Positions 14,824 to 28,007 of a stretch of DNA of 64,000 nucleotides are shown here, in pieces. The stretch comes from Phycisphaerales bacterium (GTDB taxonomy: Bacteria; Planctomycetota; Phycisphaerae; Phycisphaerales; SM1A02). Both the position numbers and the translations under genes were made by a program. The DNA lies in assembly GCA_029268515.1 (NCBI GenBank), contig JAQWNP010000010.1, positions 282,330 through 346,329 of the forward strand. The letters run 5' to 3'. Positions within the stretch are counted from its first letter, which is position 1. Each line of letters opens with the position of its first letter. The notes below the pieces were generated by a model that worked only from the letters and a program-made list of their open reading frames with translations, was not told the DNA's origin and searched no databases.

Positions 14824-14864
14824 GCGGCGCTGTTTGATTTGCAGATCGTCACGGAGCAGAGCGT

Positions 14865-15689
14865 CTGTCGATTCTCGAGCCCATATCGGTTACATCAATT
14901 GATGATCCTCGTTTAGAGGTTTTTCGTGACGTACGTGATGCAGATCTTCGCGGACGCACGCACTTGTTCATGGGCGAGTCTGAGTTAGTTCTGCGCCGTT
15001 TGTTAGCAACGCCAGATCGACTGCATTCCTTATTGATGAGTCCCAATAAACTGGAACGTCTGAGCCCAGCATTGCAGGCAGCTTCTTTGACCTGCCCAGT
15101 TTATGTGGCACCTTTAGAGTGGATCTCTCAAATTGCTGGTTTTCATGTCCATCGCGGGGTTCTCGCATGTGGCCATCGCCTAGAGGCAAATGCGCTCTTA
15201 CCCAAAGTATCACTGCGTGAGGTCGTCGATCGAAAACGCTGTCGACTCCTTCTGGCTGAGGGAATTACCAACGTTGACAATATGGGCGCCCTCTTTCGAA
15301 ATGCTGCGGCATTTGGTATCGACGGAGTTATGCTGGATCCAAGCTGTTGTGATCCGCTTTATCGCAAAGCTATTCGGGTTTCGATGGGACACGTGCTGAG
15401 CCTGCCCTATGGCGTCAGTGAAGACTGGGGAGGTGATCTTGAGTGGCTTGTCACAGCGGGTGGTATGAAATTGGTGGTCGCAGAGACGCATTCTGAGGCC
15501 GTTGATGTGCGGTCAATACCAATTCCTGAGCGGATGGCATTGGTCGTTGGATCAGAAGGAAGCGGTGTTGCTGAAAGTACTTGTCAGAAAAGTCACTTTG
15601 TAGCCAAGATCCCCATGTCTGATTCCACAACATCCTTGAATGTTGCCACAGCGGCAGCTGTTATGCTTTTTGCGCTTACGAATCATTAG
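14865..15689 (+). CDS. TrmH/SpoU-family RNA 2'-O-methyltransferase, apparently without a standard start codon
   Basis: Methylates a ribose 2'-OH of tRNA or rRNA using SAM. SpoU motifs are intact: NVDNMGALFRNAAAFG, LVVGSEGSGV and IPMSDSTTSLNVATAAAV, forming the trefoil-knot site. The first usable standard start is TTG 14964, but the frame is open back to a TGA at 14835-14837 and that stretch encodes SVTSIDDPRLEVFRDVRD, matching the conserved N-terminus of the family. It contains no ATG, GTG or TTG. A GGAG at 14853-14856 lies 8 nt before CTG 14865, which I use as the start; ATT 14871 is an alternative. A sequencing or assembly error upstream is also possible. 3' end overlaps murA by 14 bp. Confidence 0.85.
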   Translation: MSILEPISVTSIDDPRLEVFRDVRDADLRGRTHLFMGESELVLRRLLATPDRLHSLLMSPNKLERLSPALQAASLTCPVYVAPLEWISQIAGFHVHRGVLACGHRLEANALLPKVSLREVVDRKRCRLLLAEGITNVDNMGALFRNAAAFGIDGVMLDPSCCDPLYRKAIRVSMGHVLSLPYGVSEDWGGDLEWLVTAGGMKLVVAETHSEAVDVRSIPIPERMALVVGSEGSGVAESTCQKSHFVAKIPMSDSTTSLNVATAAAVMLFALTNH

Positions 15690-23668: not shown

Positions 23669-23995
23669 ATGAAAGTCCGCATTCAGACTAATTCGATCCG
23701 CTTTCGTCTTGAAGGCCAAGAAGTCGAAGATCTAATCTCGTTAGGTCGGGTGTGTGAACAACTCACCTTACCTTGTGGGACCACATTTAACTTACTTCTC
23801 AATACCCAAGAGTCATTGCAGGAAACACGTATATCGGCGGGGGCAAATGCGATTGCGGTGGATCTCGATCGAGAGATCCTGACCAAGTGGAATAATAGTC
23901 AGTCACTGAGTTTGAAATTCGATTTGCAATCAGATGTTGAAGGCGATTCGCTCACTATCCTGGTAGAAAAAGATCTTCCTTGTCAGTCTCATTAA
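23669..23995 (+). CDS. Small DUF7009-like protein
   Basis: 108 residues from ATG 23669, with GGAG 12 nt upstream; a TTG six codons earlier is also open. The start KVRIQTNSIRFRLEGQEVEDL and the end SLTILVEKDLPCQ resemble a small family (I recall it as DUF7009) found in planctomycetes and Bacteroidetes, with a conserved NSIR.RL opening and EKD.PC ending. No membrane segment. Function unknown. Its last 4 bases overlap the stop of the convergent trehalose gene. Confidence 0.7.
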   Translation: MKVRIQTNSIRFRLEGQEVEDLISLGRVCEQLTLPCGTTFNLLLNTQESLQETRISAGANAIAVDLDREILTKWNNSQSLSLKFDLQSDVEGDSLTILVEKDLPCQSH

Positions 23996-26538
23996 TCTAT
24001 GGCTGTATGGCGAAGAGCAGCATCTAAATTCAATGCATTCTCGATGATCCCCAAGTGCGAATATGCTTGAGGAAAGTTACCCAATGCGAGTTTAGAATGA
24101 GGATCATATTCTTCGCTCAATAAGCCGGTCGGACCTGCGAGGGCAGCCAGGTCTTTAAAAAGCTGCTGTGCTTCTTTGATTCGACCTACATAGACCAATG
24201 CATCGATGAGCCATGAGGTACAAAGATGGAATCCACCTTCTACGCCAGGTAGGCCATCATCGTAGTGATAACGGTATACGGTTGGCCCGGTGCGGAGATA
24301 CCGCTCAACAAGATCGATCGTCCCTAGAAAGCGTGGATCGTCGGCATCTAACATGCCTGAGAGGCCAACAAGTAATGCTGATGCATCTGGATCACTTCCA
24401 TCGTATGCAGCAGTAAAGGCATTCACTTGTGGTTTCCAGCCGTGCTCTAGAATATCGTCTTTGATCGCATCTCTTAGCTCATACCAGCCTTCGGGTTCTC
24501 TGCGTGCAAGCTCTCTGGCGATCTTAATGCCACGATCAACAGTAAGCCAGCACATCACTTTTGAGTGTACATGGTGTCGCCGAGGCGTACGTAACTCCCA
24601 GATTCCATTGTCTGGATCACGCCATCGACGTTCTACGGCGCGGACCATTGCTTCGGTCAGTCGCCAGTGCTCAGATGAGAGTGGCGCATGTCGAATCACA
24701 AGCTCGTAGATCAGTTCTACAATTGGGCCAAACACATCAATCTGGATCTGAGAGGATGCAGCATTCCCAACACGTACTGGTCGGCTGCCCGCGTAACCTC
24801 TTAGTTCTGCAATTTCACCTTCAGACTGAAGCTCCGTTCCGCGAATCGTATAAAGAGGCGACAATCGCTCCGGATGTTCAACAAGGTCTAAGATGTTCAG
24901 CATCCATTCAAGAAAACGGATTGCCTCGCCCTCTCGACCTAAACGGGTGAGGGACTGGGCCGACAGGGCGGCGTCCCGTAGCCAGCAGAATCTGTAGTCC
25001 CAGTTACGAATGCCGCCTATGGACTCAGGTAGACTGGTCGTTGCAGCTGCAGCAATGCCACCAGATGGACCGTAGCAAAGGGCACGGAGCGTTAGTGCGC
25101 TCCGTAATACCAGCTCGGGAGCAAGATCAGGTAGTTTGAGCTGTGGGATCCAACTCCGCCAGTGAAGATCTGTATCACGTAGTCGTTCCATGACAGTGAG
25201 ATCGCCATCGGTGATTCGGCTGGTGCCAAAACGCAACTCGATGGCAAGGGGTGTTTCAGAAAGTTCGATCTCTGCTCTGGCAGTATGACTTCCACCCTCT
25301 TCAAAAAGTGACCATTGTACGCCTGGAGCAATCAGAACAATTGGATCAAGTGTATCGATAACCTCAAGATGATCTTCATGAACGCGCATTCTCGTGATAT
25401 CGCGCCCAAAGTCTCGACGTGGCGCGAAGTCAATGACCGCGGTTCCTTTTCCTTTGAGTAAGCGCACAAGATCACTTCGACCCGCTCGCCTTCGCCATCT
25501 GTTTTCTGAACAGTCCATAAAGTCTGTGACAACCATGTTGCCCCAGCTTGTTTCAACCACCATCGAGTCTTGCCAATACTTCTGTATAGGTTTTTTGCTC
25601 TGGTTCTTGGGTAACACACTGAAGTAACCTGCAGTGGTGCCACCGACGAGTTGAGAAAAAAGTGATGGTGAATCTAGTCTAGGCAGGCATCCCCAAACAA
25701 CTCGAGCATGAGGCGTGAGAAGAAGGCACGTCCGTTGATCAGATAAAAGAGTATGTTGTTCAATCGGCACAGCGTTGGCATCATGAATCCATTCATCACG
25801 AGATTCTGTCAGCTGCGCAAGCGTAATAGCTACTTCATCAGGATCAGAAACGCGGAATTCAGCAAGCGTGTCACCGTCGCCCACCTTGATGCCAATGTCT
25901 GGCCCGTAAAGGGTTTTGAACGCATCTTCATCCGTCGTGTCATCGCCTATAAAAAGTACTGCAGAGGCGCCTACTCGCCGACGCATCGTCTCGAGGGCAG
26001 CGCCCTTATCAGTAGCGATGACCGTAAGTTCGAGTACCATTTTTCCAGACTTTAGAAAGACACCTGGCAGTTTGGCTGGACCTTTTTCAATTGCTGCGAG
26101 TGCCGCCGATGCTGTTTCTGGTTTTACATTTCGATAATGGAACGCGACGCTTGCGGGTTTGACTTCAACTTTAAAAAGTGGATCGCCGGTCGCAATCTTT
26201 TTGATCTCAAATTCAAGGCGACGGCGGAGAGAAGTCTGTTGGTCTGTGAGCCGATGGTTAAAATCCGCGTCAAACTCACTTCCATGACTCCCAACTAAAT
26301 GAATGGCTGGATGAAAATCAGTCAGCGTTGAAAGATCTTGGAGAGACCTTCCTGAGATGATCGCCACATGTGTTTGAGGCATCTGTGCCAGTAGTCGAAT
26401 TGCAACAGCGCAATCTCGATTTGGTTTCGCATCACCTGGATTATCTACAATTGGTGAAATCGTGCCATCGTAGTCACAGGCCACCAAAATGTTTGGTGAT
26501 TTGGCTAGGTTGAGCATGCTATCGTCAAGTGAAGTCAT
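23992..26538 (-). CDS. Trehalose-6-phosphate phosphatase fused to a GH15 glucoamylase/trehalase-like domain
   Basis: 848 residues from ATG 26538. Residues 1-245 are an OtsB-type HAD phosphatase: VACDYDGTISPI (motif I), IISGRS, GSHGSEF, FIGDDTTDEDAF (motif IV). Residues 255-845 are glycoside hydrolase family 15: SIGGIRNWDYRFCWLRDA with the catalytic-acid region, RVGNAASSQIQIDVFG, LLSEEYDP with the probable general base Glu, and NFPQAYSHLG. GH15 includes glucoamylases and the actinobacterial trehalases. The fusion would remove phosphate from trehalose-6-phosphate and may then cut trehalose. Start overlaps the otsA stop (ATGA), so the two are coupled. Confidence 0.9.
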   Translation of the reverse strand: MTSLDDSMLNLAKSPNILVACDYDGTISPIVDNPGDAKPNRDCAVAIRLLAQMPQTHVAIISGRSLQDLSTLTDFHPAIHLVGSHGSEFDADFNHRLTDQQTSLRRRLEFEIKKIATGDPLFKVEVKPASVAFHYRNVKPETASAALAAIEKGPAKLPGVFLKSGKMVLELTVIATDKGAALETMRRRVGASAVLFIGDDTTDEDAFKTLYGPDIGIKVGDGDTLAEFRVSDPDEVAITLAQLTESRDEWIHDANAVPIEQHTLLSDQRTCLLLTPHARVVWGCLPRLDSPSLFSQLVGGTTAGYFSVLPKNQSKKPIQKYWQDSMVVETSWGNMVVTDFMDCSENRWRRRAGRSDLVRLLKGKGTAVIDFAPRRDFGRDITRMRVHEDHLEVIDTLDPIVLIAPGVQWSLFEEGGSHTARAEIELSETPLAIELRFGTSRITDGDLTVMERLRDTDLHWRSWIPQLKLPDLAPELVLRSALTLRALCYGPSGGIAAAATTSLPESIGGIRNWDYRFCWLRDAALSAQSLTRLGREGEAIRFLEWMLNILDLVEHPERLSPLYTIRGTELQSEGEIAELRGYAGSRPVRVGNAASSQIQIDVFGPIVELIYELVIRHAPLSSEHWRLTEAMVRAVERRWRDPDNGIWELRTPRRHHVHSKVMCWLTVDRGIKIARELARREPEGWYELRDAIKDDILEHGWKPQVNAFTAAYDGSDPDASALLVGLSGMLDADDPRFLGTIDLVERYLRTGPTVYRYHYDDGLPGVEGGFHLCTSWLIDALVYVGRIKEAQQLFKDLAALAGPTGLLSEEYDPHSKLALGNFPQAYSHLGIIENALNLDAALRHTAID

Positions 26539-27914
26539 CGGTTGACAGCACCTAAGAACGATTTCGCCCAATCATGAACAGTATGCCGACGAATGATATC
26601 GCGCATGGATCGCATTCGACGCGTTGTCGCAGTTGGTGACATTGAGAGCGCTTCTTCTATGCTGACCATTAAGCCATCAATATCATGTGGATTAACTTGG
26701 ATGGCTCCACGTAGCTCTTGGGCAGCGCCTGTGAACTCGCTGAGAACGAGCGTGCCTCTATTATCGACTCGAGATGCAACGAATTCTTTCGCAATCAAGT
26801 TCATACCATCTCGTAGTGGTGTGACAAGCATGACATCTGCGCAGCGGTACATGGCGATGAGCTCATCAATTTCTAGATTTCGATAGAGGTAGTCGATAGC
26901 CGGCATACCCAGCTGCCCATACTGACCATTTACCTTTCCAACTAATTCATCAATTCTTCTTCGCATCTCAATATACTCGTCAACGTCCTCGCGACTGGGG
27001 ACAGCAACCTGTACAAGAACACATTCGTGGGGAGCCCATCTTTTGCTGCCAAGTAGTTCTTCGAAGGCACGTATTCGAATATCGATACCCTTGGTGTAAT
27101 CTAAGCGGTCTACGCCGAGAATGATCTTTCGGTCATGCCCAATTCGTTTTCGAATATTCTGCATGCGTTGTATCACTGACTCAGTCTGGGCGAGATTGTC
27201 ATACCGGTTATAGTCAATGGAGATAGGAAAGGCGGCGGCGAGAATGGTTCGATCACCTAGTCGCAAGGTCTGTCCGGTACCGCGGGCATCGGTGTAACGA
27301 CGTGCAACTGCCTGAAAATTCTGAGCGCCAGGGCGCGTTTGGAAGCCAACTACATCCGCGCCGAGAAGCCCCTCAAGAATGGCTCGTCGCCATGGCAATT
27401 GCGCAAACAACTCTGATGGTGGAAATGGAATGTGGAGAAAGAAACCAATTCGAACATCAGGTCGGAGCTCTCGAAGCATCTTGGGTACGAGCTGAAGTTG
27501 ATAATCCTGAATCCAAACGGTTGAATTTTTTGGGGCAACATCTGCAGCATATTCTGCAAAGCGATGGTTTACTTCTTGATATGGATTCCACCATCGTCGA
27601 CGATAAATTGGTTTTCGAATGGCATCGTGATACAACGGCCAAAGAGTGCCATTGCTGAAGCCATGGTAGAAATCTCTCACATCAGATTTAGAGAGGCTCA
27701 CGGGTACATTCTGGATGCCGTCGTGGAGAAAGGGCTTCGGACTACGGCCACTGCGACCGGTCCAACCAACCCATTGGCCGCTCGATTCTCGCAAGAGGGG
27801 TGAGAGTGCAGAGACAAGTCCACCTGGACTGATTTCCCACTTCATTCCATTCCCACGAGAAATGCGATGGACTGGTAGCCGATTGGCGACGATGACGAGA
27901 TCTTGTGAGCTCAG
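26535..27914 (-). CDS. otsA: Trehalose-6-phosphate synthase, GT20, apparently without a standard start codon
   Basis: Makes trehalose-6-phosphate from UDP- or GDP-glucose and glucose-6-phosphate. GT20 motifs: SPGGLVSAL, VWIQDYQLQLVP, GFFLHIPFPPSELF, LGVDRLDYTKGI, TPLRDGMNLIAKEFVA. The first standard start is ATG 27845, but in-frame upstream codons encode DLVIVANRLPVHR, the conserved OtsA N-terminus (VVSNRLPV) that carries the sugar-binding Arg. That open stretch has no ATG, GTG or TTG before a TAG. I use CTG at 27914; ATC at 27920 with GGAG 8 nt upstream is an alternative. An assembly indel is also possible. Confidence 0.9.
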   Translation of the reverse strand: MSSQDLVIVANRLPVHRISRGNGMKWEISPGGLVSALSPLLRESSGQWVGWTGRSGRSPKPFLHDGIQNVPVSLSKSDVRDFYHGFSNGTLWPLYHDAIRKPIYRRRWWNPYQEVNHRFAEYAADVAPKNSTVWIQDYQLQLVPKMLRELRPDVRIGFFLHIPFPPSELFAQLPWRRAILEGLLGADVVGFQTRPGAQNFQAVARRYTDARGTGQTLRLGDRTILAAAFPISIDYNRYDNLAQTESVIQRMQNIRKRIGHDRKIILGVDRLDYTKGIDIRIRAFEELLGSKRWAPHECVLVQVAVPSREDVDEYIEMRRRIDELVGKVNGQYGQLGMPAIDYLYRNLEIDELIAMYRCADVMLVTPLRDGMNLIAKEFVASRVDNRGTLVLSEFTGAAQELRGAIQVNPHDIDGLMVSIEEALSMSPTATTRRMRSMRDIIRRHTVHDWAKSFLGAVNR

Positions 27915-28007
27915 AACGATCTGAAAATCTCCAGCCTTCTTGAATGAGGGACTTGTGAATGAGTCTGACGCGGCCCCATACTATCGTCCAGACCTATGCT
28001 CGGAGTC

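Follow-up and report, generated by a model that had tools for sequence, protein, structure and literature searches.

The otsA-type gene in this 64,000-nucleotide stretch of a Phycisphaerales genome (the window) raises the question of where its translation starts. Its frame is open from stop to stop, and the first ATG, GTG or TTG in it is the ATG at 27845, codon 46; none of these three codons occurs in frame between the upstream TAG (27983-27981) and that ATG. The initial annotation had claimed that the gene lacks a standard start before its conserved N-terminus, and had named a CTG and an ATC as possible starts. The features discussed are listed below.

27981..27983, minus strand: in-frame stop TAG, upstream boundary of the otsA frame, not present in the same-genus relative G001 (sequence, alignment).
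26535..27980, minus strand: otsA-type (GT20) open frame, stop to stop, 481 aa (ORF reading with Pfam, NCBIfam and PDB matches).
27911..27979, minus strand: out-of-frame ATG frame of 22 codons, whose TGA end overlaps the CTG at 27914 (sequence).
27936..27938, minus strand: AAG, gap-free partner of the in-frame ATG of the G001 orthologue (alignment).
27929..27932, minus strand: GGAG, Shine-Dalgarno (SD) core, in both genus members (sequence, alignment).
27918..27920, minus strand: ATC, the most likely start, 8 nt after GGAG, in both genus members (sequence, alignment, spacing statistics).
27912..27914, minus strand: CTG, second candidate start, 14 nt after GGAG (sequence).
27843..27845, minus strand: ATG, first standard start, within the conserved region (sequence, Pfam match, G001 comparison).
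23992..26571, minus strand: downstream gene, trehalose-phosphatase domain fused to GH15 trehalase (Pfam, NCBIfam).

The reading of the frame and the family matches both bear out the claimed lack of a standard start. In the Pfam scan, PF00982 aligns from residue 27 onward, with 482.7 bits against a curated cut-off of 32.5, and the match is full-length, covering profile positions 2-471 of 473. In the NCBIfam scan, TIGR02400 matches from residue 28. The score of 532.6 bits misses the TIGR02400 equivalog cut-off of 564.85, and the exact name OtsA therefore rests on homology and neighbourhood. A trehalose-phosphatase gene adjoins otsA, as the overlapping downstream gene has PF02358 and T6PP matches, and its ATG at 26538 overlaps the otsA stop (ATGA). 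This downstream gene combines a trehalose-phosphatase domain, a trehalase-like N-terminal domain and a GH15 domain in one protein; trehalose synthesis and probable breakdown are encoded in overlapping genes.

The best match among solved sequences is PDB 5jij (E = 6.4e-154), which aligns from residue 26, and 12 of the 22 solved sequences matching otsA align from before residue 46 (8fhw via a second stretch). Judged by this homology, about 19 residues of the conserved OtsA N-terminus (DLVIVANRLPV) are encoded upstream of the ATG at 27845. They include the LVIVANRLPV motif, which we take to contact the sugar phosphate. One alternative is that the ATG at 27845 alone is used, giving a shortened and probably inactive protein, or that the gene has begun to decay. 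In its favor, this ATG is the first standard start, the MKWEISPGG that it begins is kept in G001, and 10 of the 22 solved relatives, 1gz5 included, align only from residue 50 or later. However, residues matched by the OtsA family models would be lost with such a start, and the comparison with G001 speaks against both versions.

The same-genus comparison consists of two genomes, the window's own and G001, a fragmented assembly of 540 contigs. The otsA orthologue of G001 is 84% identical, and the DNA of the two genus members aligns without a gap from the G001 ATG through to the stop. We therefore reject the view that an indel or a frameshift removed the standard start of otsA, and the recurring assembly indels suggested in the initial annotation find no place here, as the difference is a single base, ATG in G001 against AAG (27938-27936) in the window. 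Counting otsA codons from 0, codons 0-13 share 55% nucleotide identity without a coding pattern. Codons 14-25 have six changes, none of them at a third position, and 5 non-synonymous codons in 12. Across codons 26-44, 10 of 16 changes are at third positions, and the changed codons comprise 9 synonymous and 4 non-synonymous; from the ATG at 27845 onward, 241 of 324 changes are at third positions. On this pattern, coding-like change begins just after the ATC and CTG, well upstream of the ATG at 27845, and purifying selection is visible in this upstream part. Such selection argues against exclusive use of the ATG at 27845, and the remaining frame, free of stops and gaps against G001, argues against early decay. 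We consider either version improbable.

The principal alternative places the real start at 27938, with a miscalled base in the assembly or a very recent mutation, so that the cell or most of the population has an ATG. The AAG is one base from ATG and lies, gap-free, opposite the ATG of the same-genus orthologue. Furthermore, a run of 12 codons with identical third positions begins exactly at the AAG codon, the next longest run in the gene being 5. We rejected this run as something special, as runs among 17 gene pairs with G001 (otsA included) reach 15, several of them 5', and we read it as a sign only that the 5' end is near. Against a start at 27938, the contig is 445 kb long and otsA is otherwise intact. 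In codons 14-19 the differences are non-synonymous only, unlike translated sequence, although six codons are few. The G001 ATG itself has no GGAG, GAGG or AGGA in the preceding 22 nt, in an assembly that is, again, fragmented. We regard this alternative as unlikely.

More distant relatives did not share the missing start. Searches of 61 and 181 genomes gave relatives of otsA in 18 and 13 of them, respectively (the window's own genome counted in both), and a contig scan for close relatives gave one from 14 stretches. In each of the 22 relative loci that we read, the frame offers an ATG, GTG or TTG at the NR motif or before it, and the distance varies widely. The NR anchor was misplaced for five loci (L002, L003, L009, L020 and L021), which were judged from separate readings; among the 18 well-anchored loci, one (L007) has GGAG, GAGG or AGGA at 4-11 nt before such a codon. 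The non-standard start of otsA is not conserved in its relatives.

We weighed four candidates for the start: AAG 27938, ATC 27920, CTG 27914 and ATG 27845. The CTG and ATC are present as the initial annotation had stated, with GGAG ending 8 nt before the ATC, and all three elements are identical in both genus members; the G001 ATG sits six codons upstream of the ATC. The ATC (27920-27918) is the sole CTG, ATT, ATC or ATA upstream of the ATG at 27845 that has GGAG, GAGG or AGGA at 5-10 nt. At the first standard starts of 510 sampled genes, 8 nt is the commonest SD spacing (32 of 156 genes with a motif; other spacings have 4 to 26 genes each, and 354 of the 510 have no motif at 3-14 nt). The otsA gene thus has a near-cognate codon at the usual spacing (GGAG-8-ATC). 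Predicted folding is less favorable: the 40 nt at the otsA ATC fold at -8.1 kcal/mol, a stability reached by only 13% of 179 sampled ATG starts (median -4.6), and GGAG is mostly paired (0.16 unpaired).

If translation began at the CTG at 27914, perhaps through ribosomes re-initiating where the short upstream frame ends, a short leader would remain before LVIVANR. A standard codon lies 7-15 codons before the NR motif in 9 of the 18 well-anchored relatives, and the CTG of the window lies at 9. The CTGA overlap also copies the ATGA overlap between otsA and the next gene. However, no SD motif lies within usable reach of the CTG, which is predicted to be paired (0.02 unpaired). In G001 the stop of the short upstream frame is not kept, the aligned frame stopping after 7 codons. 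Moreover, CUG output is 0.86% of that of AUG (as cited in PMC11497404). We find a start at the CTG quite unlikely, and of the two codons proposed in the initial annotation the ATC is the better.

Our preferred reading is that otsA is translated from upstream of the ATG at 27845, most likely from the ATC at 27920 by way of the GGAG 8 nt before it, and we hold this with about even confidence. A non-AUG start of otsA, with the ATC first among candidates, is probable on these sequence features. The GGAG would select the ATC, which would be read as Met by the initiator tRNA. Initiation at the ATC would be weak and, as for E. coli infC, sensitive to initiation factor IF3, and the OtsA enzyme would therefore be made at a low, perhaps regulated level; ATC use, the low level and any regulation are what we infer. 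The intact frame, the family homology, the selection, the SD motif at the commonest spacing and the layout shared with infC support the ATC. Against it stand an SD motif that is only a 4-nt core and not extended, a stable predicted fold and the lack of conservation of the start.

Is non-standard starting a habit of this lineage? The initial annotation had counted otsA as a second case in 64 kb, which is real as an observation if the following gene was meant.

14838..15689, plus strand: SpoU-type methylase, the second gene whose conserved N-terminus has no standard start ahead of it (domain scan, relatives).

In this gene a CTG (14865) is located 8 nt after GGAG, in sequence that is likewise predicted to be folded (-9.5 kcal/mol). 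Of 121 genomes, 111 contain a match, its own included. Ten best relatives were read; one (L065) has no motif, and the nine with the motif all carry an ATG or GTG 11 or 12 codons ahead of DPR (-11 or -12). The window has an ATT (14871) at -11 and the CTG at -13 relative to DPR. In G001 the gene is truncated where its contig ends.

For 510 genes, taken from 767,865 bases of a genome of 3.2 Mb, we scored the sequence before the first standard start for coding potential. The SpoU gene has the top extension score (8.4, 42 codons), and otsA ranks fifth of 510 (3.6, 45 codons) and fourth within its own contig, C10 (295 genes in one run of the scan and 294 in another); the genes ranked between the two have 22 or fewer codons before their first standard start. 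Only otsA and SpoU combine more than 40 such codons with a score above 3. Given this rank and these thresholds, the upstream coding signal of otsA is unlikely to be due to chance. Two of the 510 genes, again otsA and SpoU, have a long coding-like extension and also a near-cognate codon that follows an SD motif. The window happens to contain the two best cases of the sample.

Next to these two cases, a general excess of near-cognate codons is marginal. We compared how often CTG, ATT, ATC and ATA, as against other codons, follow an SD motif in the stretch before the first standard start (one-sided Fisher test), in counts that include otsA and SpoU, the genes that prompted the test. At a spacing of 5-10 nt, 34 of 371 near-cognate and 269 of 4421 other codons qualify (p = 0.016), and at 7-9 nt the counts are 18 of 371 and 133 of 4421 (p = 0.042). 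With the last four codons excluded, they are 16 of 237 against 128 of 2917 at 5-10 nt (p = 0.07). Near-cognate codons after SD motifs are the count by which the initial annotation had suggested judging its idea; in the 510 genes it gave, at 7-9 nt with the same exclusion, a marginal excess (10/237 vs 64/2917, p = 0.048). Among those ten near-cognate cases, otsA and SpoU alone have clear coding support. The idea that the lineage favors CTG or ATH starts is thus left with a marginal excess (p = 0.016-0.07, prompting genes counted), whereas a habit is not seen, as only two of 510 genes are clear. A lineage-wide excess is at most weak. CUG is cited as 0.024% of bacterial starts (as cited in PMC11497404, PMC9845219).

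A further 10 genes besides otsA and SpoU were scanned, from 68 with at least 12 codons before the first standard start and a score above 0.9. One of the ten (GreA) has a match upstream of its first standard start, in one NCBIfam model and by one residue; the other nine have no Pfam or NCBIfam match there. A relaxed initiator tRNA was also considered and rejected, as the putative initiator (L111) has the usual GGG/CCC anticodon stem; 30 of the 46 tRNA loci found were read, three of them with a CAT anticodon. The 16S rRNA matches (G000:C17:227240-228591) end at model position 1387 near a contig end, and the anti-SD region lies beyond.

We also noted a formyltransferase-like gene (L075:13851-14687 in G000:C9 and L147 in G001:C306; score 2.6, 39 codons). 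In both genus members its conserved main-frame N-terminus (KIRIxILTG) is encoded ahead of codon 40, the first standard start. Just upstream is a conserved ATG, one base out of frame, and the changes in the first 20 nt fall mostly on third positions of that ATG's frame. This gene has either a non-standard start or a frameshift common to both genus members, and it is not among the genes listed with a near-cognate codon 7-9 nt after an SD motif. Together, infC, otsA, the SpoU-type methylase and perhaps the formyltransferase-like gene could form an IF3-tuned group of AUC and CUG starts that includes trehalose synthesis, with output that would follow IF3 level or growth state. We consider such a group very doubtful.

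Common gene finders accept only ATG, GTG and TTG as starts, and non-AUG starts outside infC are easily overlooked for this reason. If the ATC at 27920 is the start, a standard annotation would drop 25 residues of the conserved OtsA N-terminus, and trehalose synthesis would stand under a weak start, a known but uncommon means of holding protein output low. Switches to CUG or AUU in place of an AUG start are reported as very rare, with 2 and 1 cases among 61,358 (PMC5622118). A literature search on otsA and non-canonical start codons gave no paper on an otsA start, by title and abstract opening. One on Planctomycetes, start codons, AUC and infC gave nothing on a case of the otsA type among the matches listed, again by title and abstract opening. 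It is plausible that otsA is a new example of a known rare kind, genes with a natural start other than AUG, GUG or UUG; its sequence features would place it there, and conservation does not.

The closest comparison is infC, which we used as a control. The infC gene of the window's genome (L086, G000:C11 near 45006) lacks a standard start ahead of the IF3 N-terminus, and AGGA stands 8 nt before an ATC, with a predicted fold there of only -2.1 kcal/mol; otsA likewise has no ATG, GTG or TTG before its conserved N-terminus and an ATC 8 nt after an SD core. We found infC in 57 of the 61 family genomes searched, with no match in G001, and 30 loci were returned and examined. Seven had no recognised motif and were excluded; all 23 readable loci have a near-cognate codon 7-9 nt after an SD motif (ATC in 18, ATT in 3, ATA in 1 and CTG in 1). 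In eight of these 23, the frame additionally contains a standard codon before the motif or at it; of those listed, at most three per locus, none follows an SD motif. Thus infC has the look of an ATC start in this family, and otsA, as a candidate for such a start, shares that look. Unlike infC, otsA is without a standard start in one genome only.

Other systems offer parallels to a candidate start of this kind. Baudet and colleagues (2010) reportedly found non-canonical starts in Deinococcus deserti by proteomics, on which those starts rest, whereas that of otsA rests on sequence. The start codon of E. coli pcnB is reportedly called inefficient in the title of Binns and Masters (2002), and it was studied by experiment, unlike that of otsA. 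Like the candidate otsA start, the AUU of pcnB serves a function other than IF3, as described in PMC9410913. The same source gives AUU as the start of E. coli infC and states that IF3 limits its own synthesis, a known reason for the near-cognate start of infC there. In S. aureus, infC (AUA), cvfC1 (AUU) and ccpN (AUA) are described as beginning behind extended SD motifs (PMC13009471). The cvfC1 and ccpN starts resemble the candidate otsA start as non-AUG codons selected by an SD motif, but they have an extended SD and ribosome profiling (PMC13009471), whereas otsA has GGAG only. The mechanism at otsA would nevertheless resemble that of infC, pcnB, cvfC1 and ccpN, in that an SD motif would guide initiation to a near-cognate codon, giving low output and perhaps sensitivity to IF3.
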